In this document: one piece after another, positions 7,507 to 20,143 of the stretch
Numbering within the stretch: position 1 is the first letter of the stretch
Layout of the letters: every line of letters starts with the position of its first letter
Assembly (NCBI GenBank): GCA_017431345.1
Contig: JAFRLH010000034.1
Span: 1-45,488, forward strand
Direction: 5' to 3'
DNA: 45,488 nucleotides
Origin: Lachnospiraceae bacterium
Lineage (GTDB): Bacteria > Bacillota > Clostridia > Lachnospirales > Lachnospiraceae
Notes under the pieces: model-generated
Databases searched by the model: none
What the model saw: the letters and a program-made list of their open reading frames with translations, nothing else
What the model was told of the DNA's origin: nothing
Made by a program: the position numbers and the translations under genes

Positions 7507-9219
7507 GTGTTCAGTATTAAGCGAATGATAATCCGTGCGACTTGCATCGCGGTAACGGGAACCATGGTTTCCGCAACGCCGATCATGGCTGCCACAGGCG
7601 CAGCACACGCCGGAATTTCCAGTGCGCTTTATCAGGAAAACACGATCGCCGTCGGAGGGATTGCAAATACTGTGAGAATGAGCGAAGCTGCAAGCAATGC
7701 CCATTCCGTCATGTCACAGAATAAATATGAAAAAACAGATGCAGAGAAGGCTGAGAACAGACAGCTTGCCGAGCAGATCGATAAGCAGGCGGAAGAGAAG
7801 AAAGAGCCTTCCCCTTATGCAAATATTGCAATCGCGCAGGTAAAGAGCTGTGTACGGATCCGTACGGCGCCCAATTCCGATGCGAAGATTGTCGGAAAGA
7901 TCTATAATAATGCGGCTGCAAATATTGATGCGATCGTTGACGGCGAGGATGGCGACTGGTACAAGATCCATTCCGGATCAGTGGAAGGGTATATCAAATC
8001 CGATTACTTTGTGACAGGCGAGGAAGCCGAAGCCATTGCCTTTGAAGTTGGTGATGTAAAGGCTACCGTTTCCGCCGAAACATTAAGACTGAGATCCAAA
8101 GCAGATACGGGAAGCTCCATCGTTACACTGCTTTCCGCGGAAGAAAAATATGACGTGATCGGTCAGACAAACGGTTTTGCGAAACTTCGGATCGATGATG
8201 ATGTAACGGGATATGTGGACGATGCCTACATCAAGTATACCGTAAAGTTTGATAAGGCTGTCTCTATTGAGGAAGAACAGGAAGCGCTGAAAGCACAGCG
8301 CAGAGCAGAGGCGGCGGCATCGCGTAAGCATACAAAGAAGAAAGTGCATAAATCGATACAGCGGCAGGAAGAACGGGATGATGCGGACGATGAGGAAGCT
8401 ATAGAAGAACAGCTTGAAGAAGCTGAACCCGGGTACGAAGAGGAAGAAGAGCGCGAAGAAGCCGAACCCGGGTACGAAGAGGAAGAAGAGCGCGAAGAAG
8501 CCGAACCCGAGTACGAAGAGGAAGAGGAACGCGAAGAAGCCGAACCGGAACCCGAACCTGAAGCAGACGATGACGAAGAAGAAGCTTCAGACGACGAGGA
8601 AGAGGAACCGGAAGAGGAAGAAGATCCTGAGCCGGAACCCGAACCTGAAGCAGACGATGACGAAGAAGAAGCTTCAGATGACGAAGAAGAGGAGCCGGAA
8701 GAGGAAGCAGAACCTGAACTGGAAGAGGAAGAAGAGCCTGAACCGGAAGAGGAAGAAGATCCCGAGCCGGAACCCGAGCCGGAACCCGAACCTGACGATG
8801 ATGACGAAGAGGATATTGAATACGAGGAGGAAGAAGAGGAGGAAGAGGATGATTCCTCAAGCTCCAGCAGTTCCACCCGTGAAGCGATCGTTGATTATGC
8901 GCTGTCATTCGTTGGAAATGTTCCTTATGTATACGGCGGAACCAGCCTGTCAAGCGGCGTAGACTGCTCCGGATTTGTACAGCAGGTCTACAAGCACTTC
9001 GGAATCAGTCTTCCCAGAACATCCGATTCCATCGGCGGTTCCGGAAGCAGCGTAAGTTCAGGGGAGAAGCAGCCCGGTGACATCGTTCATTACGACGGCC
9101 ATGTTGCGATCTATATCGGAAACGGCCAGGTGGTGCATGCTTCCAATGAGAAGTCCGGCGTTAAGGTCTCGACCTGGAACTACCGCGGTGTAGACAGCAT
9201 CAGGAACGTGCTCGATTAA
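7507..9219 (+). CDS. secreted SH3-acidic repeat-NlpC/P60 peptidase
   Basis: A 570-residue exported wall hydrolase. It starts at GTG, 6 nt after AGGAGGT. Order: signal peptide (about 1-28, cleavage near PIMAATGAAHA); two bacterial SH3 domains (about 103-170 and 180-245, with VRIRTAPNSDAKIVG and LRLRSKADTGSSIV) that should bind peptidoglycan; a basic stretch (about 265-288); a very acidic spacer (289-449) of tandem repeats; a short serine run; and an NlpC/P60 domain (455-570) with Cys487 in DCSGF, His532 in GHVAIY and His544. The family cleaves peptide cross-links such as D-gamma-Glu-meso-DAP. The promoter and candidate WalR sites suggest control with cell-wall turnover. The acidic spacer is the unusual part: DNA repeats of 39 bp and 87 bp show recent slippage. 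Confidence 0.92.
   Translation: MFSIKRMIIRATCIAVTGTMVSATPIMAATGAAHAGISSALYQENTIAVGGIANTVRMSEAASNAHSVMSQNKYEKTDAEKAENRQLAEQIDKQAEEKKEPSPYANIAIAQVKSCVRIRTAPNSDAKIVGKIYNNAAANIDAIVDGEDGDWYKIHSGSVEGYIKSDYFVTGEEAEAIAFEVGDVKATVSAETLRLRSKADTGSSIVTLLSAEEKYDVIGQTNGFAKLRIDDDVTGYVDDAYIKYTVKFDKAVSIEEEQEALKAQRRAEAAASRKHTKKKVHKSIQRQEERDDADDEEAIEEQLEEAEPGYEEEEEREEAEPGYEEEEEREEAEPEYEEEEEREEAEPEPEPEADDDEEEASDDEEEEPEEEEDPEPEPEPEADDDEEEASDDEEEEPEEEAEPELEEEEEPEPEEEEDPEPEPEPEPEPDDDDEEDIEYEEEEEEEEDDSSSSSSSTREAIVDYALSFVGNVPYVYGGTSLSSGVDCSGFVQQVYKHFGISLPRTSDSIGGSGSSVSSGEKQPGDIVHYDGHVAIYIGNGQVVHASNEKSGVKVSTWNYRGVDSIRNVLD
8416..8532 (+). repeat. three 39-bp tandem coding repeats
   Basis: Units at 8416-8454, 8455-8493 and 8494-8532 each encode EEAEPGYEEEEER (third unit EEAEPEYEEEEER). 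Units 1 and 2 differ at one base. They lie in the acidic spacer of the wall hydrolase and, being in multiples of three, can change number without breaking the frame. Confidence 0.9.
8548..8722 (+). repeat. 87-bp direct repeat in the acidic spacer
   Basis: A segment encoding EPEPEADDDEEEASDDEEEEPEEE occurs twice with an 87-bp (29-codon) offset; for example CCCGAACCTG stands at 8551 and again at 8638. The copies are nearly identical, with small synonymous changes. Confidence 0.85.
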
Positions 9220-11004: not shown

Positions 11005-12117
11005 ATGAAAAGAATTATTTTACTGTTTGTGGTTATGATTACTGCCTTAATGATTTGCGGGTGCGGAACGTCAGAAACGATTCAGGAAACACCTGCTCCG
11101 GAGTCTGACGCCGCTGCCGCAGAGGAGCAGTCAGCAGCGGGATCTTCGCCTGCAGCTTCCTCCTCCGACACCATCTGGCTCTCCATGGCCACCTCCGGCA
11201 ACTGGGAGGATATCGCCCGCGGCGAGATCTGGAATGAATACTGCGATAAGCTGGCGGAATGGTCCGGCGGCAAACTCCGGATCCGTTCGTATTTCAACGG
11301 CAGTCTCGGGAATGATCTGGAACTGATCGAAGGTGCGAAAGAAGGAACGCTTTCCATCATAAATTCTGTTCCTTCATACCAGATCAGTGTGGTTCCGGAG
11401 GCAGCGCTTCTGGATGTCCCGGGCCTGTTTGACAGTACAGCGGAATACAATTATTTTGTTCAGAATTACTACATGCCGACGCTGGCAGACTTCTATCTGA
11501 ATCAGGGCCTGCGGCTGCTGTCGAGCTCTGCCTTTGATTTCAGGGTGTTGACTGCAAATACGCCCGTAAAAAGTGTGAATGATCTGAAGGGCCTGAAACT
11601 CCGTACGATGGAGAATCCGTACCACATGGCTTTCTGGCAGGCGCTTGGCGCCTCGGCGATTTCCATGAACTTCAACCAGGTGAGGCTGTCGATCCAGCAG
11701 GGGATCCTGCAGGCGCAGGAGAATCCGCTAGGCTATATGGTCTCCTCGGATCTGCTGGCAGTGCAGGATCAGGTCGTGCTTACCAATCATGTTCCGATGA
11801 TCAACAATTTCCTGATGAACGAGACCCAGTATCAGGCGCTTTCGGAGGAGAACAAGGAGCTGCTTGACAGATTTTTCAGAGAAATGAATGAAGAACTGGT
11901 AAACCGCCAGCCGGATGAGAATGAGAAGCTGGTGAAGGAGCTCAGCGGAAAGGGAATCAACATTTATGATGCTGCGGAGGATATCAAAGGCGCTGTGAAA
12001 AATACGGCGCAGCCTGTCGTGATCGATATGCTTCGGAAAGATCTGGGAGAGGATATCGTAAATGATTATCTGGAGAAAGTGAAGCAGGCCAAAGAAGAGT
12101 TTGCTTCCAGGCAGTGA
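11005..12117 (+). CDS. dctP: TRAP transporter substrate-binding lipoprotein (DctP)
   Basis: A 370-residue extracytoplasmic solute receptor for a TRAP importer, which takes up carboxylates using an ion gradient. The N-terminus is a lipoprotein signal with Cys20 in ICGC, then an Ala/Ser/Glu-rich linker to about residue 52. The DctP fold follows, with LKGLKLRTMENPYH containing Arg200, the position that in this family binds the substrate carboxylate, and SIQQGILQAQENPL. It resembles the three fused binding domains of the downstream DctM in plan but is clearly diverged: it has Leu/Asn/Gln changes in the usually conserved NPTPMAFSEVYTSLQ stretch (here SAISMNFNQVRLSIQ), so its ligand may differ. dctQ follows after 185 nt with a hairpin between. 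Confidence 0.92.
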   Translation: MKRIILLFVVMITALMICGCGTSETIQETPAPESDAAAAEEQSAAGSSPAASSSDTIWLSMATSGNWEDIARGEIWNEYCDKLAEWSGGKLRIRSYFNGSLGNDLELIEGAKEGTLSIINSVPSYQISVVPEAALLDVPGLFDSTAEYNYFVQNYYMPTLADFYLNQGLRLLSSSAFDFRVLTANTPVKSVNDLKGLKLRTMENPYHMAFWQALGASAISMNFNQVRLSIQQGILQAQENPLGYMVSSDLLAVQDQVVLTNHVPMINNFLMNETQYQALSEENKELLDRFFREMNEELVNRQPDENEKLVKELSGKGINIYDAAEDIKGAVKNTAQPVVIDMLRKDLGEDIVNDYLEKVKQAKEEFASRQ

Positions 12118-12200
12118 CAGTTTTTAAAATGATGAACCATTTTTAAGGAAAAAGTGAAGGGAAGTTAGTCCTTTTAAAAGGTTTTTATTTAATCAATGTG

Positions 12201-12244
12201 AAAGAGATGCTAGTTTATATTCTAAACGGGCATCTCTTTTTTCG
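12201..12244 (+). terminator. intercistronic hairpin between dctP and dctQ
   Basis: AAAGAGATGC (12201-12210) pairs perfectly with GCATCTCTTT (12230-12239), followed by TTT. Placed inside the transporter locus it may act as a partial terminator or 3' mRNA stabiliser, giving more dctP than dctQM mRNA. I saw no clear promoter between it and dctQ. Confidence 0.65.
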
Positions 12245-12302
12245 TAGAGAAAATGCCCATCGCTATGCAACCCGTTGTATCTATATTTTAGGAGGAAAGA
12301 AG

Positions 12303-12803
12303 ATGAAGGCAATCAAATGGCTTGACGAAAACCTCGAGGAGATCATCCTGGTCATACTCTGCGGCGTCATGGCCTGCATCATGATCCTGCAGGTTATCAT
12401 GCGTTACGCATTCAGGTCTTCGCTGTCATGGTCGGAGGAACTTACCAGATTCCTGTTTATCTGGTCCGCATTCCTGTCGATCAGCTACTGCACCAGGAAA
12501 CGGCTGAACATCCAGATCACGATGCTTCTGGAAGCGCTGCCGATCCGGATCCGTTACACGCTTATGATCATTGTGGATATCGTTATGGTATGCCTGTTCG
12601 GCTACCTGACACCCGCTGCGATCAACTATCTGGGCCAGACCATTGCGAACAATCAGCTGAGTACCGCGCTGAGACTTCCCATGTCTGTGATCTATCTGGC
12701 ACCTGTTGTTGGATTTATCCTGGCAATTATCCGTCACCTGCAGTCGATCGCTTACGATGTAAGTGAAATGAAGAAGGCTCTCGCTGAGGAAGCCGCGAAG
12801 TAA
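12303..12803 (+). CDS. dctQ: TRAP transporter small membrane subunit (DctQ)
   Basis: A 166-residue protein with four hydrophobic segments and the DctQ family pattern: an amphipathic start (MKAIKWLDENLEEIILV), ILQVIMRYAF, the signature LSWSEELTRFLFIWSAFLSISYCTRK and a final LAPVVGFILAIIRHLQSI. It forms the membrane complex with DctM. The ATG at 12303 follows TAGGAGGAAAGAAG, an excellent ribosome binding site; an in-frame upstream GTG at 12198 lies in the hairpin and is not credible. The large subunit begins 18 nt after its stop. Confidence 0.93.
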   Translation: MKAIKWLDENLEEIILVILCGVMACIMILQVIMRYAFRSSLSWSEELTRFLFIWSAFLSISYCTRKRLNIQITMLLEALPIRIRYTLMIIVDIVMVCLFGYLTPAAINYLGQTIANNQLSTALRLPMSVIYLAPVVGFILAIIRHLQSIAYDVSEMKKALAEEAAK

Positions 12804-12821: not shown

Positions 12822-15800
12822 ATGTCACCGGCATTATTATTTGTCATCTTTGTCATCTGTCTGTTCGCGTCCATTCCGGTATCCGGTTCCATGGCAATCG
12901 CCTCTCTGGCCCCCGGCCTTATGGGTGTGGATTCGATCACAGCGATCAGCTTTATCCGTAACTGCGTGGAGGGTGTCAACAGCTTCTCGCTGCTGGCGAT
13001 CCCGATGTTCATTCTGTCCGGTATCGTAATGGCCCGCGGCGGCGTTTCCCGTAAGCTGTTCGATTTCTTCACCTACTTTATTGGTAAGATCCCCGGCGGT
13101 ATGCCCTGCGCGGTTATCGTGACCTGCCTGTTTTACGGCGCTATTTCCGGTTCCGCGCCCGCTACTGTTGCGGCTGTCGGTTCCATGACCATCCCGATCC
13201 TGCTGAACCTCGGCTACACCAGAGAATTCACGGTATCGACTGTCTGCGTTGCCGGTTCCCTCGGCGTTATCATCCCGCCTTCGATCCCGATGGTTCTGTA
13301 CTGCATGGCCAACTCGGAAGCGTCCGTCGGTAAGATGTTCACTGCAGGTATCCTTCCCGGATTCCTGATCGCAGGCTGCCTGATGGTTTACGCAGTATTC
13401 TACTGTCTGAGACACGGCGAGGATAAGGAGCGGATCAACAAGGAAGTTTCCACGCTTCGTCAGAGAGGCTTTGTGAAGGTCTTTTTCACCAGCTTCTGGG
13501 CACTGCTTTCCCCCGTTATCATCCTCGGTTCCATTTACGGCGGTATCGCTTCTCCTACAGAAGCCGCTACCATTTCCGTTTTCTATGCACTGATCGTCGG
13601 TCTGTTCATCTATCGTACCCTGAAGGTGAAGGATATTCCCGCGATCCTGCAGGAGACCGTCCAGACATACGGACCGCTGCTGTTCGTGCTCGGTGCTGCT
13701 GCTGCATTCGCGAAGGTCATGGCTATGCTGCAGATCCCTGCTATGGTCAGCGACTTCATGATCGCTACCTTCCATTCGAAATTCATGATCCTGCTGATCG
13801 TGAACATCTTCCTGTTCTTTGTCGGTATGGTCATGGACGGCGGTCCCGCGATCCTGCTGCTGACCCCCATCCTGTGGCCCATTGTGAAGGCTGTCGGCAT
13901 AAACGAGATCCACTTCGGTATCATGATGATCGTCAACCTGGCAATCGGTTTCGTTACACCTCCGATCGGAATCAACCTTTTCGTTGCCAGCCGTGTCGGC
14001 GAACTGCCGGTCATGACGGTCGCAAAGAACGTTATGCCTTATATCTGCCTGTTCGTTGTCGCGCTGGTAGCGATCATCAGCTTCCCCGGCATTTCTCTGA
14101 CACTCGTGGGAGGTTCTGCATCCGGTACTGTTCAGACAGCGTCCGGCGGAGCGGAAGGCGTGGAAGCGATCGAAGCGGAATACAGTACGGACAATCTGGA
14201 GAAACTGGATATTGCTGCTGACAATATCGGCGAATACAACTGGTTCCTCGGCACCGATTCTTCGGAAGATACCGTTACCCAGCTGTATGCGCAGAAGTTC
14301 GCAGAACTCGTAAATTACTATTCCGACGGCAAGATGACCATTACGGTCCAGGCCAACGGAACGCTCGGATCCGACAATGCACTTTGTGAATCCGTAAAGA
14401 CCCAGGACGGCGTGAACTTCGTTGTTCAGACGACCGCGCCCGAAGTGAACTTTATCCCTGAACTGGCTGTATTCGATGCGGCCTGCGTATATGGAGATAT
14501 CTCCGAAGTACGTATGGCGCTGGATGATGCCGAATTCATGGAGACCATCAACGGACTGTATGCAAACGGCGGCTACAAGCTCCTTGGCTTTGCGGATCAG
14601 AACTTCCGTGAACTGTCCACGAACGTGGAAGTATCCACCATGGCTGACCTGAAGGGGCAGAAGATCCGTACGATGGAGAACGACAACCATCTGAAATTCT
14701 GGAGTTCCTGCGGCGCGAATCCTACCCCTATGGCCTTCTCCGAGGTCTACACCTCCCTGCAGAACGGCACCATCGACGGCCAGGAGAACCCTTACGAAGT
14801 TATTGTTGGAAACAAACTGTATGAAGTACAGAAGTACGTTGTTACCACCAACCACCTGCCCCATATCCTTGCGCTGATCACCGGCAACGGTCTGTATGAC
14901 AGCCTGAACGATGATGAAAAGGCTGTTATCGATGCGGCTGTTGACAAGGCGAAGGCTTATGCCCGTAAGCAGGCTGATGCCCGTGCCGGAGAGCGTATCG
15001 AAGCGATCGAAGCCGGCGGCTCCACCGTCCTTCCGTTCAACCAGTCTCTGTTCACGGAGATGCAGGAAGCTGCACAGGATGAATGGGATCAGATCAAGGG
15101 TATCTGCGGAGAAGATCTGTTCAATGCCTACACCCAGTACATGGGTCAGGGCGGCAGCGGCGTAGTCTATGCGGCACCTGAAGTGAACCTTGACAATATC
15201 GGCGAGTACAGCTGGTTCCTCGGCACCGATTCTTCCGAAGATACCGTGACCCAGCTTTATGCCGTGAAGTTCTCCGAACTCGTAAATGAGTACTCCGGCG
15301 GCAAGATGAACATTGTTGTCCAGGCGAATGGAACGCTCGGCTCCGATAATGCGCTCTGCGAATCCGTAAAGGCACAGGACGGCGTGAACTTCGTTGTTCA
15401 GACGACTGCACCCGAAGTCAACTTCATCCCTGAGCTTGCTGTATTCGATGCAGCCTGCGTCTACGGCGACATCGCCGACGTCAGAACTGCTCTTGATGAT
15501 GATACCTTCATGAATACGATCAACGGCCTGTACGAGAAGTCCGGCTACAAGCTCCTTGGCTTTGCCGACCAGAACTTCCGTGAGCTGTCCACAAATGTGG
15601 AAGTAAGCACGCTTGCCGACCTGAAGGGACAGAAGATCCGTACGATGGAGAACGACAACCATCTGAAATTCTGGAGCAGCTGCGGAGCGAATCCTACCCC
15701 GATGGCCTTCTCCGAAGTCTACACCTCCCTGCAGAACGGCACGATCGACGGTCAGGAGAACCCTTACGAAGTTATCGTGGGAAACAAGCTCTATGAAGTT

Positions 15801-17054
15801 CAGAAGTACGTTGTTACCACGAACCATCTGCCTCATATCCTTGCGCTGATCACCGGTGCGGATATGTACAACAACCTGAATGATGATGAAAAGGCTGTCA
15901 TCGACGCAGCTGTCATGCAGGCGAAGGCTTATGCCCGTGAGCAGGCTGACTCCCGTGCGGGTGACCGTATCGCAGCGATCGAAGCGGGCGGCTCCACAGT
16001 CCTTCCTTTCAATGCGGATCTGTTCGCAGAGATGCAGGCTGCCGCGCAGGATGAGTGGGAGCAGATCAAGGGTGTCTGCGGAGAAGACCTGTTCAACGCT
16101 TATACCAAGTACATGGTCAATATCAATACAGAGAACGTCGGCGAATACCAGTGGTTCCTGGGAACAGATTCTTCCGAGGATACTGTTACGCAGCTGTATG
16201 CACAGCGTTTTGCAGAACTGGTGAACCAGTACTCTGACGGCAAGATGAACATCGTTATCCAGGCGAACGGAACACTCGGCTCCGATAATGCTCTGTGCGA
16301 ATCCGTAAAAGCGCAGGACGGCGTGAACTTCGTTGTTCAGACGACTGCACCCGAAGTCAACTTCATCCCTCAGCTGGCTGTCTTTGATACCGCCTGCGTA
16401 TACAGCGATATCAATGATGTCCGCAACGCGCTTGATGATATGGAGTTCATGAATACAGTCTCCGGTCTGTATGAGAGCGCCGGCTACAAGCTGATGGGAT
16501 TTGCGGATCAGAACTTCCGTGAGCTGTCCACAAATGTGGAAGTCAAGACGCTTGCTGACCTGAAGGGCCAGAAGATCCGTACCATGGAAAACGACAACCA
16601 CCTTAAATTCTGGAGCGGCTGCGGTGCCAATCCTACCCCGATGGCCTTCTCTGAGGTCTATACCTCCCTGCAGAACGGCACGATCGACGGCCAGGAGAAC
16701 CCTTACGAAGTAATCGTAGGAAACAAGCTCTATGAAGTACAGAAGTATGTTGTTACCACGAACCATCTGCCGCATATCCTTGCGCTGATCACCGGTGCGG
16801 ATATGTACAACAACCTGAATGACGACGAGAAGGCTGTTCTGGATGCGGCAGTACTTCGTGCAAAGGCGTATGCCCGCGAGCAGGCTGACTCCCGTGCGGC
16901 AGCCCGTATCGCAGCGATCGAAGCCGGCGGCTCCACCGTTCTTCCTCTGAATCCCGATCTGTTCGCGGAGATGCAGGAGGCGGCACAGGCTGAATGGGAT
17001 CAGATCAGAGCTGCAGTTGGCGACGAACTGTTCAATGCTTATACCCAGCAGTGA
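12822..17054 (+). CDS. dctM: TRAP large permease fused to three DctP domains
   Basis: A 1410-residue fusion. Residues 1-430 are a complete DctM permease (IPMFILSGIVMARGG, ISGSAPATVAAVGSMTIP, LGVIIPPSIPMVLYCM, GGIASPTEAATISVFYALIVG, VTPPIGINLFVASRV), ending where DctM proteins normally stop (ISFPGISLTLVGG). A flexible Ser/Gly/Ala/Glu linker (431-466) leads to three tandem DctP domains starting near 467, 791 and 1104 (about 324, 313 and 307 residues). Each has FLGTDSSEDTVTQLY, the carboxylate-binding Arg in KIRTMEN (616, 940, 1253) and DGQENPYEV. The domains are roughly 88% identical by eye and have no signal peptides of their own. One unbroken frame spans the gene, with AGAAAGGAGG before the ATG. 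The arrangement implies permanent tethering of receptors, if the permease C-terminus is outside the cell. Confidence 0.93.
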   Translation: MSPALLFVIFVICLFASIPVSGSMAIASLAPGLMGVDSITAISFIRNCVEGVNSFSLLAIPMFILSGIVMARGGVSRKLFDFFTYFIGKIPGGMPCAVIVTCLFYGAISGSAPATVAAVGSMTIPILLNLGYTREFTVSTVCVAGSLGVIIPPSIPMVLYCMANSEASVGKMFTAGILPGFLIAGCLMVYAVFYCLRHGEDKERINKEVSTLRQRGFVKVFFTSFWALLSPVIILGSIYGGIASPTEAATISVFYALIVGLFIYRTLKVKDIPAILQETVQTYGPLLFVLGAAAAFAKVMAMLQIPAMVSDFMIATFHSKFMILLIVNIFLFFVGMVMDGGPAILLLTPILWPIVKAVGINEIHFGIMMIVNLAIGFVTPPIGINLFVASRVGELPVMTVAKNVMPYICLFVVALVAIISFPGISLTLVGGSASGTVQTASGGAEGVEAIEAEYSTDNLEKLDIAADNIGEYNWFLGTDSSEDTVTQLYAQKFAELVNYYSDGKMTITVQANGTLGSDNALCESVKTQDGVNFVVQTTAPEVNFIPELAVFDAACVYGDISEVRMALDDAEFMETINGLYANGGYKLLGFADQNFRELSTNVEVSTMADLKGQKIRTMENDNHLKFWSSCGANPTPMAFSEVYTSLQNGTIDGQENPYEVIVGNKLYEVQKYVVTTNHLPHILALITGNGLYDSLNDDEKAVIDAAVDKAKAYARKQADARAGERIEAIEAGGSTVLPFNQSLFTEMQEAAQDEWDQIKGICGEDLFNAYTQYMGQGGSGVVYAAPEVNLDNIGEYSWFLGTDSSEDTVTQLYAVKFSELVNEYSGGKMNIVVQANGTLGSDNALCESVKAQDGVNFVVQTTAPEVNFIPELAVFDAACVYGDIADVRTALDDDTFMNTINGLYEKSGYKLLGFADQNFRELSTNVEVSTLADLKGQKIRTMENDNHLKFWSSCGANPTPMAFSEVYTSLQNGTIDGQENPYEVIVGNKLYEVQKYVVTTNHLPHILALITGADMYNNLNDDEKAVIDAAVMQAKAYAREQADSRAGDRIAAIEAGGSTVLPFNADLFAEMQAAAQDEWEQIKGVCGEDLFNAYTKYMVNINTENVGEYQWFLGTDSSEDTVTQLYAQRFAELVNQYSDGKMNIVIQANGTLGSDNALCESVKAQDGVNFVVQTTAPEVNFIPQLAVFDTACVYSDINDVRNALDDMEFMNTVSGLYESAGYKLMGFADQNFRELSTNVEVKTLADLKGQKIRTMENDNHLKFWSGCGANPTPMAFSEVYTSLQNGTIDGQENPYEVIVGNKLYEVQKYVVTTNHLPHILALITGADMYNNLNDDEKAVLDAAVLRAKAYAREQADSRAAARIAAIEAGGSTVLPLNPDLFAEMQEAAQAEWDQIRAAVGDELFNAYTQQ
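14220..15140 (+). repeat. fused DctP domain, tandem copy 1
   Basis: Residues 467-773 of the fusion, from DNIGEYNWF to LFNAYTQYM. A Gly/Ser linker (MGQGGSGVVYAAPEVNL) joins it to copy 2. It differs from copy 2 at roughly 36 of 303 positions by eye count, mostly surface-type residues. Confidence 0.88.
15192..16116 (+). repeat. fused DctP domain, tandem copy 2
   Basis: Residues 791-1098, from DNIGEYSWF to LFNAYTKYM, joined to copy 3 by the very short linker VNINT. The block from GFADQNFREL to HILALITG is almost invariant among the three copies at protein level while the DNA shows scattered silent changes. Confidence 0.88.
16131..17051 (+). repeat. fused DctP domain, tandem copy 3
   Basis: Residues 1104-1410, from ENVGEYQWF to LFNAYTQQ, ending at the stop codon. 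It keeps Arg1253 and the NPTPMAFSEVY segment. Its last helix (IRAAVGDELFNAY) is the most diverged part compared with copies 1 and 2 (IKGICGEDLFNAY). Confidence 0.88.
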
Positions 17055-17277: not shown

Positions 17278-17808
17278 ATGAATATTAAGAGACCGGAATA
17301 CGGATTGAGTGAAAAATATCTTGCAAGGCTCAGGAAGGATACCATCCTGAATCTGCTGATCATCTTTATGTTCTGGCTGGTCTTCAATGTCCTTTTCAAG
17401 GATCATCCGAAATACGGCATCATCAAAGTGCTCTTTGTGTTTGTTTTCCTGGCAATCGCAGTTGCCGTGACTATAATGAATGCAAAGAGAGTGAGAAAAG
17501 CGGAAACGATCGGTTTCACACTCACGAAGGACGCTCTGCTTTATTGTGACGGAAAGAAGACCGCGGCCTATCCCTGGCATCATTTTGAGAAGGTCACAGT
17601 CAATGAGAACAGGATCTCCATGCCGTTCCCGTATGAATTTCATACCAAAGAAGGCATGTTCCTGGTGCACAGGCAGCTGGATCGGCCGGAAAAGGTGCTG
17701 ATGGAGATCATCAAGCGCGCCAGGCCGTATGCGCAGATCGATGAGAAGATCCCGGAGGTCATCAAGGAAGATGACAACTGGGTTAAGGGACTTGGAAGAA
17801 TGCTGTGA
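17278..17808 (+). CDS. small membrane protein, YcxB-like
   Basis: A 176-residue protein with a short charged N-terminus, two adjacent transmembrane segments (about 22-40 and 47-66) and a soluble C-terminal part of about 100 residues containing GFTLTKDALLYCDGKKTAAYPWHHFEKVTVNENRI-like beta strands. That plan (two helices then a small PH-like beta domain) resembles YcxB-like/bacterial PH domain proteins of unknown role; the match is by pattern only. GGAGGGAC precedes the ATG. The AraC-type regulator gene begins about 67 nt downstream across a dispersed repeat, so the two may share a transcript. Confidence 0.7.
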   Translation: MNIKRPEYGLSEKYLARLRKDTILNLLIIFMFWLVFNVLFKDHPKYGIIKVLFVFVFLAIAVAVTIMNAKRVRKAETIGFTLTKDALLYCDGKKTAAYPWHHFEKVTVNENRISMPFPYEFHTKEGMFLVHRQLDRPEKVLMEIIKRARPYAQIDEKIPEVIKEDDNWVKGLGRML

Positions 17809-17826
17809 CCGCAGCCGGGAGAGTAT

Positions 17827-17870
17827 GCCTTCCCCTTTAGGGGAGGGTGGCACGTCAGTGCCGGGAGAGG
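17827..17870 (+). repeat. CCTTCCCCTTTAGGGG dispersed repeat, copy 1
   Basis: CCTTCCCCTTTAGGGGAGGG forms a hairpin, then GTGGCACGTCAGTGCCGGGAGAGG forms a second (GGCAC/GTGCC). Its last bases, GGGAGAGG, are correctly placed as the ribosome binding site of the TTG-started regulator at 17876. Further copies lie at 29626 and 29707. Confidence 0.75.
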
Positions 17871-17875
17871 TTACC

Positions 17876-20143
17876 TTGAACATCAAAACCCTTAAAAACC
17901 GCATATCTGCAATATTAAAGAAAGAGAGCCTGTACACACAGACTCTTTTTATGCTGTCCCTGCTGTCCCTCATCACCATTGCCGCCATGTTTGCCTTTGT
18001 CAGCAACATTGTCGTCAGGAACCAGAAAGAAAAGATCGCATCGATCTACAGCGATCAGCTTGAGCGGATCAGTACAGATGCTGATATTCTGATGAACGGG
18101 ATCGAGCAGTCTCTCTCCGAACTGCTTCACGCCAACAGCATGGTCTCCCTGATGGTGAATCCCCGCCTGAAGAGCAGCAGTACCGGTTATGCAGTGGTTT
18201 CTCTGCTTGCCAATGCCGCCCAACAGGACCCTCTGGTAAAACGTGAATTCCTTTATCTTCCTTATACGGAAGAAGTATACAGCTCCGTCGGGAACTATGT
18301 GAGCCTGGAGAACAGTCCGAACAAAGAGGATATCGAGATCTATCTTTCTCTCCGGGAACAGGACAGAGCCGGAGACGCTGAAAGCGAGACCAGACTGTTC
18401 TTTAACAACGGAGAACTATATCTGGCAGGCGATATGTGCGTTCCGAATTTTATCGGCGCCGTGATCTGTCAGATCGACACGGAAGCCTTCTATGACAGGA
18501 TCAACGGCAGCAGCGATGATCCCACAGACTTCTTTATCCTTGACCGTGACCGCAATATTCTGATATCTGCACCGGCTTCGGCAGATAAGATCCGCGCAGT
18601 GCTTGATAAAAAGGGGACCGGAGATCTTCTGTCAGATCCGGAAGAAGGTTTTATTTATACACAGTCCCAGGCATACGGTCTGATCTGCGGTCTGGGAACG
18701 GATTCTCTGTTTGAAAGCGTAAGCCCGCTGACGGTTATCCTGACGCTTCTTCCGTTCATTATTGCCTACGGTATATTTTCACTCCTTTACTCGAGATACG
18801 TCAGCAAAAAAGTCTATGCGCCATTCAATCGTCTGATGCATCTTACCGGACTTCGCGGTCAAAGTGAAGCAGCAGACAGGAATCGGGGCGAGCTGGAGAT
18901 CCTGGAGGAAACGATCGGAAACGCGATGGGAGAAAGTTCCAGGCAGAGAGAACTCCTTGACAGCATTTCTTCCGATGTTACCGAGCAGCTTTTCCGGGGC
19001 ATCCTGATGATGTCGGATACTGACATGGACCATATCAGAGTTACCATGGAAGGCATTGGACGTACGGAATATCTTACAGGGAAATATCAGGCAATGGCGG
19101 TCAGGATCCAGCCGGAGGAAGGCAGGAACCTGAGCGTTGTCGAAGAAGGACTGTATCAGAAGAGCCTGCTTGCGATCCTGCATGAACAGAGTCTGGAGAA
19201 CGGCCTGATCGTTCCCCTGTACATGGACAGCGAGACGCTGGCCGTACTTCTGTGCTTTACGGATGATGTTTCCGTGCTGAGCATTAAGCGGGAACAGGGC
19301 GGACTCGCGGACAATATAGAAAGAGGCGTAAACGGTCTTCCTTATTCTGTCATCATGGGAAAGGGGAAGATCTATAATGAGATAACCGCGCTGAAATTTT
19401 CCTACAGAGAAGCCGCAGAGGAACTACTCGTACCGGAACATGAAATGGAAAATGCAGAAAACCTGCAGGCTGCCGGTTTTGACCGGAGATATTACAGACG
19501 CAGAGCGGAAGAGTATGCGGATATTGCGGAAAAAGCAGGGGCTGAAGAAGCAGAGGCGGCAGCGGGCAGTATTGCTGCCGAACTGTCTGAAAGTACAAAT
19601 GAAAACCGCAGGGAATATCTCGAAGAAGTCCTGGATGTGCTTGTGGAACGTATGATCAAAGCGCATCTGGCACAGGACGATATCCAGAAAATGATGCTGA
19701 GAACGCGTATGGAAACGATCCGCCTGCTGACAGACAGGGATGAGATCAGAGGGAAGATCGCGGAACTTCTGTCTGAGATCGGCAGAGCGCTGAGACAGAA
19801 CAGCGGAAAGAGCAGATACAGATATGTGGATTTTGCGATGGAATATATTGCCGCGCATTATTCAGACGGAAATCTCTCTCTGGATGAAGTGAGCAGGGCG
19901 GTCGGGATCTCCGCACCTTACCTGAGCGGGATCTTCTCGGAAGTCAATAAAGGCGGCTTCCTGGCATACCTGAGCAGCTATCGGGTGGAACAGGCGAAGA
20001 AATATCTTGCAGGAACAGGAGATACTGTGGCTGAGATCGGAAAGGCATGCGGATTCAATTCCGCGCAGAGTTTCAGCCGTGTGTTCAGAAAACAGACCGG
20101 TATGTCGCCGGGACAGTACAGGGACAAAATGAAAGAAACGTAA
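17876..20143 (+). CDS. membrane-bound AraC-family regulator
   Basis: About 755 residues. Two transmembrane segments (about 22-47 and 284-306) bracket an extracytoplasmic sensor region of about 235 residues with a predicted PAS/Cache-like character (inferred from layout). A cytoplasmic linker follows. The C-terminus (about 648-752) is an AraC/XylS double helix-turn-helix: LSLDEVSRAVGISAPYLSGIFSEVNKGGF and VAEIGKACGFNSAQSFSRVFRKQTGMSPGQYR. This plan is common in Firmicutes regulators of carbohydrate or carboxylate uptake genes. The start is taken as TTG at 17876 because GGGAGAGG sits 5 nt upstream and because upstream in-frame ATGs would translate the dispersed repeat. Its position 170-800 nt after the TRAP genes suggests it senses the TRAP substrate outside the cell and activates those genes; this is inference. 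Confidence 0.87.
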   Translation: MNIKTLKNRISAILKKESLYTQTLFMLSLLSLITIAAMFAFVSNIVVRNQKEKIASIYSDQLERISTDADILMNGIEQSLSELLHANSMVSLMVNPRLKSSSTGYAVVSLLANAAQQDPLVKREFLYLPYTEEVYSSVGNYVSLENSPNKEDIEIYLSLREQDRAGDAESETRLFFNNGELYLAGDMCVPNFIGAVICQIDTEAFYDRINGSSDDPTDFFILDRDRNILISAPASADKIRAVLDKKGTGDLLSDPEEGFIYTQSQAYGLICGLGTDSLFESVSPLTVILTLLPFIIAYGIFSLLYSRYVSKKVYAPFNRLMHLTGLRGQSEAADRNRGELEILEETIGNAMGESSRQRELLDSISSDVTEQLFRGILMMSDTDMDHIRVTMEGIGRTEYLTGKYQAMAVRIQPEEGRNLSVVEEGLYQKSLLAILHEQSLENGLIVPLYMDSETLAVLLCFTDDVSVLSIKREQGGLADNIERGVNGLPYSVIMGKGKIYNEITALKFSYREAAEELLVPEHEMENAENLQAAGFDRRYYRRRAEEYADIAEKAGAEEAEAAAGSIAAELSESTNENRREYLEEVLDVLVERMIKAHLAQDDIQKMMLRTRMETIRLLTDRDEIRGKIAELLSEIGRALRQNSGKSRYRYVDFAMEYIAAHYSDGNLSLDEVSRAVGISAPYLSGIFSEVNKGGFLAYLSSYRVEQAKKYLAGTGDTVAEIGKACGFNSAQSFSRVFRKQTGMSPGQYRDKMKET

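Follow-up and report, generated by a model that had tools for sequence, protein, structure and literature searches.

GlnPQ and OpuA are ATP-driven importers with a fold unrelated to that of TRAP transporters, and the binding domains of OpuA are fused to the transporter. GlnPQ is described in the cited passages (PMC8025302) as carrying tandem binding domains on the permease C-terminus; the linkers measure 19 and 14 residues, and lengthening them makes transport slower. Each of its two domains binds independently of the other, and their specificities are not the same. OpuA is described, in the part of its literature drawn on here, as using two binding domains. TAXI-GltS, found in Lachnospiraceae, joins a binding protein to a sodium-coupled elevator-type transporter, explained in the cited text as tethering where a conventional periplasm is lacking (PMC12344293). 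In DctP-type TRAP systems (TC 2.A.56; SiaPQM, DctPQM and the isethionate system IsePQM) a receptor (P) on a separate polypeptide is usual but not defining; the section of a 2021 TRAP review cited here notes Q-M fusions and calls Q-P fusions 'rarer still' (PMC8276074). No described M-P or M-P-P-P TRAP protein was recognised among the open-access papers listed, judged mostly by title and abstract, with subscription literature outside the scope.

The locus described here lies in a window of 45,488 nucleotides (the whole stretch analysed) from a Lachnospiraceae bacterium (GCA_017431345.1, contig JAFRLH010000034.1). Like the DctP-type systems it has DctM, DctQ and DctP with the characteristic Arg, but three copies of P are covalently attached to M, and a separate P is also encoded upstream. 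Fused binding domains are shared with GlnPQ and OpuA, a likeness in working without membership that had been proposed from the sequence and is supported by the tandem C-terminal domains reported for GlnPQ; unlike those of GlnPQ, the P domains here apparently do not differ in specificity. TAXI-GltS, from the same family, also fuses a receptor to an elevator-type transporter, but with a single N-terminal TAXI domain on GltS as against up to three C-terminal DctP domains on DctM. TAXI-GltS and GlnPQ are the nearest systems in design.

The M-P-P-P gene and its neighbours

The initial annotation, made from the sequence alone, had placed DctM and three DctP domains in one frame, and a single intact ORF with this architecture is present:

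11005..12117, + strand: separate DctP gene (free P), lipoprotein-like start MKRIILLFVVMITALMICGCGTS; Pfam DctP, E 6.6e-53; 28-33% identity to P1-P3
12200..12242, + strand: terminator-like hairpin between free P and Q, 3' arm running into six T
12303..12803, + strand: DctQ small permease subunit; Pfam E 9.4e-33, 113.3 bits against a cut-off of 28.3; AGGAGG before the ATG
12822..17054, + strand: whole M-P-P-P fusion gene, 1410 codons; Pfam DctM and DctP
12822..14108, + strand: DctM domain, residues 1-429
14109..14231, + strand: linker between M and P1, residues 430-470; rich in Gly, Ser and Ala at first, acidic further on, without a signal peptide
14232..15134, + strand: P1 domain, residues 471-771
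15135..15203, + strand: P1-P2 linker, residues 772-794 (boundary set by us)
15204..16106, + strand: P2 domain, residues 795-1095 (Pfam and our own HMM)
16107..16142, + strand: P2-P3 linker, residues 1096-1107 (boundary set by us)
16143..17042, + strand: P3 domain, residues 1108-1407 (Pfam and our own HMM)
17278..17808, + strand: small protein without an assigned function; homologue after the transporter in 5/5 genus loci compared
17729..20143, + strand: regulator of AraC type (HTH_18), its two hydrophobic segments separated by ~230 residues; homologue in 5/5 genus loci

DctM and DctP are the only Pfam matches of the fusion, which has no ABC permease or ATPase and no TAXI or GltS match: DctM forms one stretch (residues 7-424; E 5.8e-108; 361.8 bits against a cut-off of 23.8) and DctP three (whole-protein E 1e-191). 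Both dctM and dctP also exceed their NCBIfam cut-offs, dctP again as three stretches. Our own HMM places the P cores at residues 471, 795 and 1108, close to the starts near 467, 791 and 1104 proposed earlier, and the KIRTMEN motif reported for each domain is found at 614, 938 and 1251. The source genome has 13 DctP matches, three of them the fused domains. An uninterrupted 1312-aa ORF (12837-16775, - strand) runs antisense to nearly the whole fusion gene, most likely as a by-product of codon usage.

The M-P-P-P observation is confirmed as real. The source assembly consists of 94 contigs with 5.14% contamination, and an assembly or frameshift artefact might on that account be considered, but this explanation is already refuted on present evidence and has practically no likelihood left. 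The P repeats, at spacings of 972 and 939, are 79-85% identical in DNA and 84-88% in protein, differing at 12-16% of residues, and so do not result from threefold assembly of a single copy. The same frame is present in another genome of the genus (G005; 91% identity to the window fusion) and in two 91% full-length copies (P0003 and P0004), one of which is possibly G005's own. Two Blautia producta proteins of 1448 aa, P0015 (M-PPP by domain counting) and P0077, come from contigs 6.16 and 6.35 Mb long, and an M-PPP of 1448 aa is also recorded for B. coccoides (P0018). When the DNA was read, three other M-P pairs in the source genome (L105, twice, and L106) proved to be separate genes, so joining of M and P is no general sequencing fault.

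The DctQ gene ends 18 bases ahead of the fusion gene. RNA folding of the hairpin region upstream of Q (12190-12250) gives -21.6 kcal/mol (z -5.86), and the hairpin could keep Q and M-PPP at a lower level of expression than free P; a simple terminator scanner limited to loops of 3-8 returned none, this hairpin included, and Rfam gave nothing at its gathering threshold within the window. Downstream, the best Pfam match of the small protein, DUF6585, is below its cut-off, and the AraC-type regulator is probably, to judge from its sequence, a membrane one-component sensor. Homologues of Q, M, P, the small protein and the regulator are found in all five genus loci compared (L100-L104) and free P in four, being absent from L101, where the contig is short. 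Free P lies after the regulator in L100, L102, L103 and L104, and ahead of Q in the window. As a separate P stays by the locus, the receptors are not all in cis, and there may be four receptors in the system, the fourth perhaps sensory: free P may serve the membrane AraC regulator as its sensor, as a receptor-regulator pair. Identity between the window and G005 is 91% for M-PPP, 85% for Q, 63% for free P and for the small protein and 48% for the regulator; regulator and free P diverge much faster than the transporter. Elsewhere in the window, a 570-aa ORF (7507-9219) has a very acidic Glu/Pro-rich repeat tract followed by a C-terminal part, which we take to resemble an NlpC/P60 wall hydrolase.

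Receptor domains, linkers and topology

Ligand-contact positions were mapped onto P1-P3 by alignment to SiaP (2xxk), for which the cited part of PMC11550005 describes the roles of R127, R147, F170, E186 and H209. The six positions checked, on one lobe of P, are identical across the three domains (P1, P2 and P3 in that order):

SiaP R127: R596, R920, R1233
SiaP R147 (carboxylate-binding Arg): R616, R940, R1253
SiaP F170: F639, F963, F1276
SiaP E186: E655, E979, E1292
SiaP N187, presumably also a ligand contact: N656, N980, N1293
SiaP H209: H678, H1002, H1315

The carboxylate-binding Arg predicted for each P is therefore present by alignment, with the same contact residues throughout. Among 306 aligned columns 57 vary between P1, P2 and P3, none of them within the contact motifs. 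Over 118 proteins, identity between P domains of one protein is 80-100%: 80-89% in clade A (six proteins, two of which share one sequence), 81-100% in group B (108) and 89-97% in clade C (four; groups as defined by the DctM tree below). Shared contact residues, the lack of variable columns in the contact motifs and the within-protein identity speak for P1-P3 being copies of one receptor rather than different receptors. Binding of different ligands by P1-P3, all feeding one permease, would follow the precedent of GlnPQ, the well-studied tandem system whose domains are described as unlike in specificity, and could draw on the 57 variable columns; given the invariant contact positions and motifs, and the within-protein identity in all three groups, such widening of specificity is improbable.

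Comparison of the window with G005 gives dN/dS values of 0.043 (M), 0.10 (P1), 0.065 (P2) and 0.072 (P3), with dS of 0.62-1.02, and each fusion domain is thus shown to be under purifying selection; pairwise dN/dS among P1-P3 is 0.13-0.14. The closest solved receptors include the sugar-acid receptor 7bbr and SiaP, which at ~28% identity are too distant to name the ligand. Ten chosen neighbour proteins of two group-B loci (L150, L151) and of one G007 locus (L152), all scanned against Pfam and nine against NCBIfam, included no catabolic enzyme and gave no clue to the ligand; they belong mostly to RNA-modification, GTPase and uncharacterised families, with one CitMHS-type and one TauE-type transporter.

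The linkers M-P1, P1-P2 and P2-P3 measure about 40, 23 and 12 residues by our own boundaries, or 41, 35 and 24 by HMM envelopes; between the window and G005 the M-P1 linker is 70% identical and the P2-P3 linker identical at 12/12 residues. Beyond residue 432/433 the fusion has no hydrophobic segment and no hydropathy peak above 1.14. The domains have no signal peptide, and the initial annotation had raised the concern that the M C-terminus must then face outside. This is the orientation described for the homologue PpSiaM by cryo-EM (N-out/C-out, in the part of the report cited), and the authors of the FnSiaQM structure, in the text cited, infer the same.

An AlphaFold2 model of M-P1 with Q absent (pLDDT 90.6, pTM 0.81) suggests a defined placement of P1 relative to M. 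Linker residues 434-442 have low confidence in this model, so the M-P1 linker is probably flexible. The model of the P1-P3 tandem (pTM 0.47, pLDDT 74.5) gives no support for a fixed arrangement or for P2 and P3 reaching QM. A flexible linker would suit export of the whole chain followed by cleavage at the linkers, which would set the receptors free in soluble form, but the linkers carry neither a second signal peptide nor a hydrophobic segment, and a cell that has no outer membrane would lose a binding protein so released; we regard such release as very improbable. The cited part of the TAXI-GltS paper argues similarly on the loss of an untethered receptor (PMC12344293).

Distribution and origin of the fusions

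Of 7997 candidates scored in a homologue search, 673 proteins passed at E <= 0.001. The best 120 were examined and every one is an M-P fusion (67 M-PPP, 47 M-PP and 6 M-P): DctM followed by two or more DctP, suggested earlier as something to look for, occurs widely among them, and the impression of an isolated or rare layout was mistaken. With the query included (121 proteins), domain counting by our own HMM gives 68 M-PPP, 47 M-PP and 6 M-P. Source names among the listed fusions include Blautia producta, B. coccoides, Lacrimispora, Enterocloster and Ruminococcus sp. 5_1_39BFAA. Source databases label several fusions by receptor only or by permease only, and surveys counting P or M genes can miss fusions because of such one-sided names.

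A second search, from the fusion P0007, gave at least 44 proteins, 35 of them new, and 28 of these hold M and P (25 M-P and 3 M-PP, with a short P in P0147-P0149). The remaining seven were rejected as fusions: P0150 (Sinorhizobium fredii, labelled DctM+DctP) is a frameshift artefact, its M being frameshifted and its P keeping its own signal peptide, and P0151-P0156 have P and lack M by our own models.

In surveys of genomes, fusions were counted only from ORFs read in DNA; most open frames of ~770-880 aa, many of which had been taken for M-P fusions, proved to be separate M and P genes. Among 397 genomes of the family, the best 30 loci, all from different genomes, comprise 8 M-PP, 7 M-P and 15 unfused, which with the window puts a fused locus in at least 16 of 397. 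Only the window's locus is fused among the best 30 in each of the class (391 genomes) and phylum (398 genomes) surveys. The layout recurs inside Lachnospiraceae, and reading the class and phylum samples to this depth brought up no further case. At L066, L016, L021, L093, L094, L098, L099 and L122, the stop-to-stop frame of P is that of M and opens just past the M stop, a layout from which fusions could arise.

Within the genus (11 genomes sampled), G000 and G005 carry M-PPP at the locus. G002, G004, G006 and G007 have an M 81-84% identical with a separate P just downstream (Q-M-P), and the other five have no M above 52% identity among the matches listed. A distant M-PP of Blautia type (L113) is present in G006 as well. 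Equal-score matches on opposite strands at mirror positions in G004 (C198, 29936-30880 and 30861-31805; further places too) have the look of a palindrome produced by assembly. The last residues of M are ...ISLCLL or ...ISLALL in the four unfused genomes, whereas the fused M continues as ...FPGISLTLVGGSASG... into the Gly/Ser-rich stretch with no signal peptide. The unfused P of all four starts with a signal peptide and a lipobox-like Cys (AACGSSS in L101 and L103, TACGSSS in L102 and L104). This Cys is present in six of eight unfused P starts (L101-L104, L083 and L087; absent from L066 and L084) and is not universal outside the genus. The fusion thus apparently replaced the lipid anchor of P by the permease C-terminus.

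A DctM tree was built by a quick method with SH-aLRT only, from the window, the fetched loci and 27 hand-picked proteins of the 121, leaving out M matches <330 residues; its 108 rows (63 unfused; 45 fused: 11 M-P, 18 M-PP and 16 M-PPP) include many long branches. Fused permeases occupy three places on it (A, B and C). Five changes between fused and unfused are needed, each of them required by starred branches; for copy number, with four states, the figure is 16. AU tests on 58 of the 108 rows (50 left out as long branches or near copies) reject monophyly of the fusions taken together (p 3e-46), of clades A and C (p 1.8e-5), of clade A and Blautia group B (p 5e-49) and of group B alone (p 2e-4); groups A, B and C were named after the tree had been seen, the 'all fused' set was not. 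The unfused L083, L084 and L087 fall inside group B, so some of the changes may be fissions, and the counts do not distinguish gain from loss of fusion. Gain is favoured by the export signals that unfused P proteins bear, and we infer that fusion was gained rather than lost.

In a tree of P domains (115 of 122 rows, long branches present), all 13 clade-A domains, including P1-P3 of the window, fall together (99*) beside the lipoprotein P of G006 (99*); those of group B lie far off (100*), and both P of P0007 are inside clade C. P therefore multiplied separately in A, B and C. On the evidence of these sequences, the tandem-receptor TRAP variant appears to have more than one origin. The two P of P0005 (M-PP) group with the P1 and P3 copies of clade-A M-PPP proteins, so it is the middle copy that is missing, through loss or through collapse during assembly.

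The frequent copy-number change on the M tree, and copies within one protein that are sometimes identical (domains d1 and d2 of P0054), would also be expected if P copies came and went by recombination, with one working and the extras conferring nothing. Such neutral amplification is a less likely reading, though a more serious one than widened specificity: the P domains of the window have dN/dS of only 0.065-0.10 against G005, three separate groups have tandem copies, and in clade-A M-PPP proteins the P3 copies group by position (99*) and P2 with P3 excludes P1 (96*), P1 and P2 each forming no resolved group.

Proposed working and its meaning

The reading we consider probable is a TRAP importer with receptors in cis, in which copy number sets the ratio of receptor to permease, not specificity. 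DctQ, a separate chain, and the M domain would form the membrane elevator, with P1-P3 hanging outside the cell on linkers from the outward-facing M C-terminus. Each of the three could bind the shared carboxylate ligand and then move down onto QM to dock in cis; QM would import the ligand, presumably with sodium. The fusion would keep P at the membrane, a task that falls to a lipid anchor in unfused relatives, and duplication of P would fix a 3:1 receptor:permease ratio rather than broaden specificity, which is where any benefit of three copies may lie; the lability of copy number (16 changes) also fits drift. The initial interpretation as a whole is partly supported; tethering, as it proposed, may raise the local density of receptors or make hand-over to the permease faster.

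The variant is real and conserved, and the evolutionary series is a stronger finding than the architecture. Tentatively, and with somewhat less than even confidence, TRAP transporters may have become receptor-in-cis systems at least three times in Lachnospiraceae and relatives, P being captured, its anchor discarded and its number tuned between one and three, while in this genus free P was handed to the AraC regulator as a sensor. In the parts cited here, TRAP structure papers treat the receptor-permease complex by modelling and docking; a covalent P-M chain may help to trap it. Related permeases with unfused, one, two and three P form a natural series, which lets one ask if free diffusion is necessary for a TRAP receptor and what reason some importers have for tying receptors to the permease.
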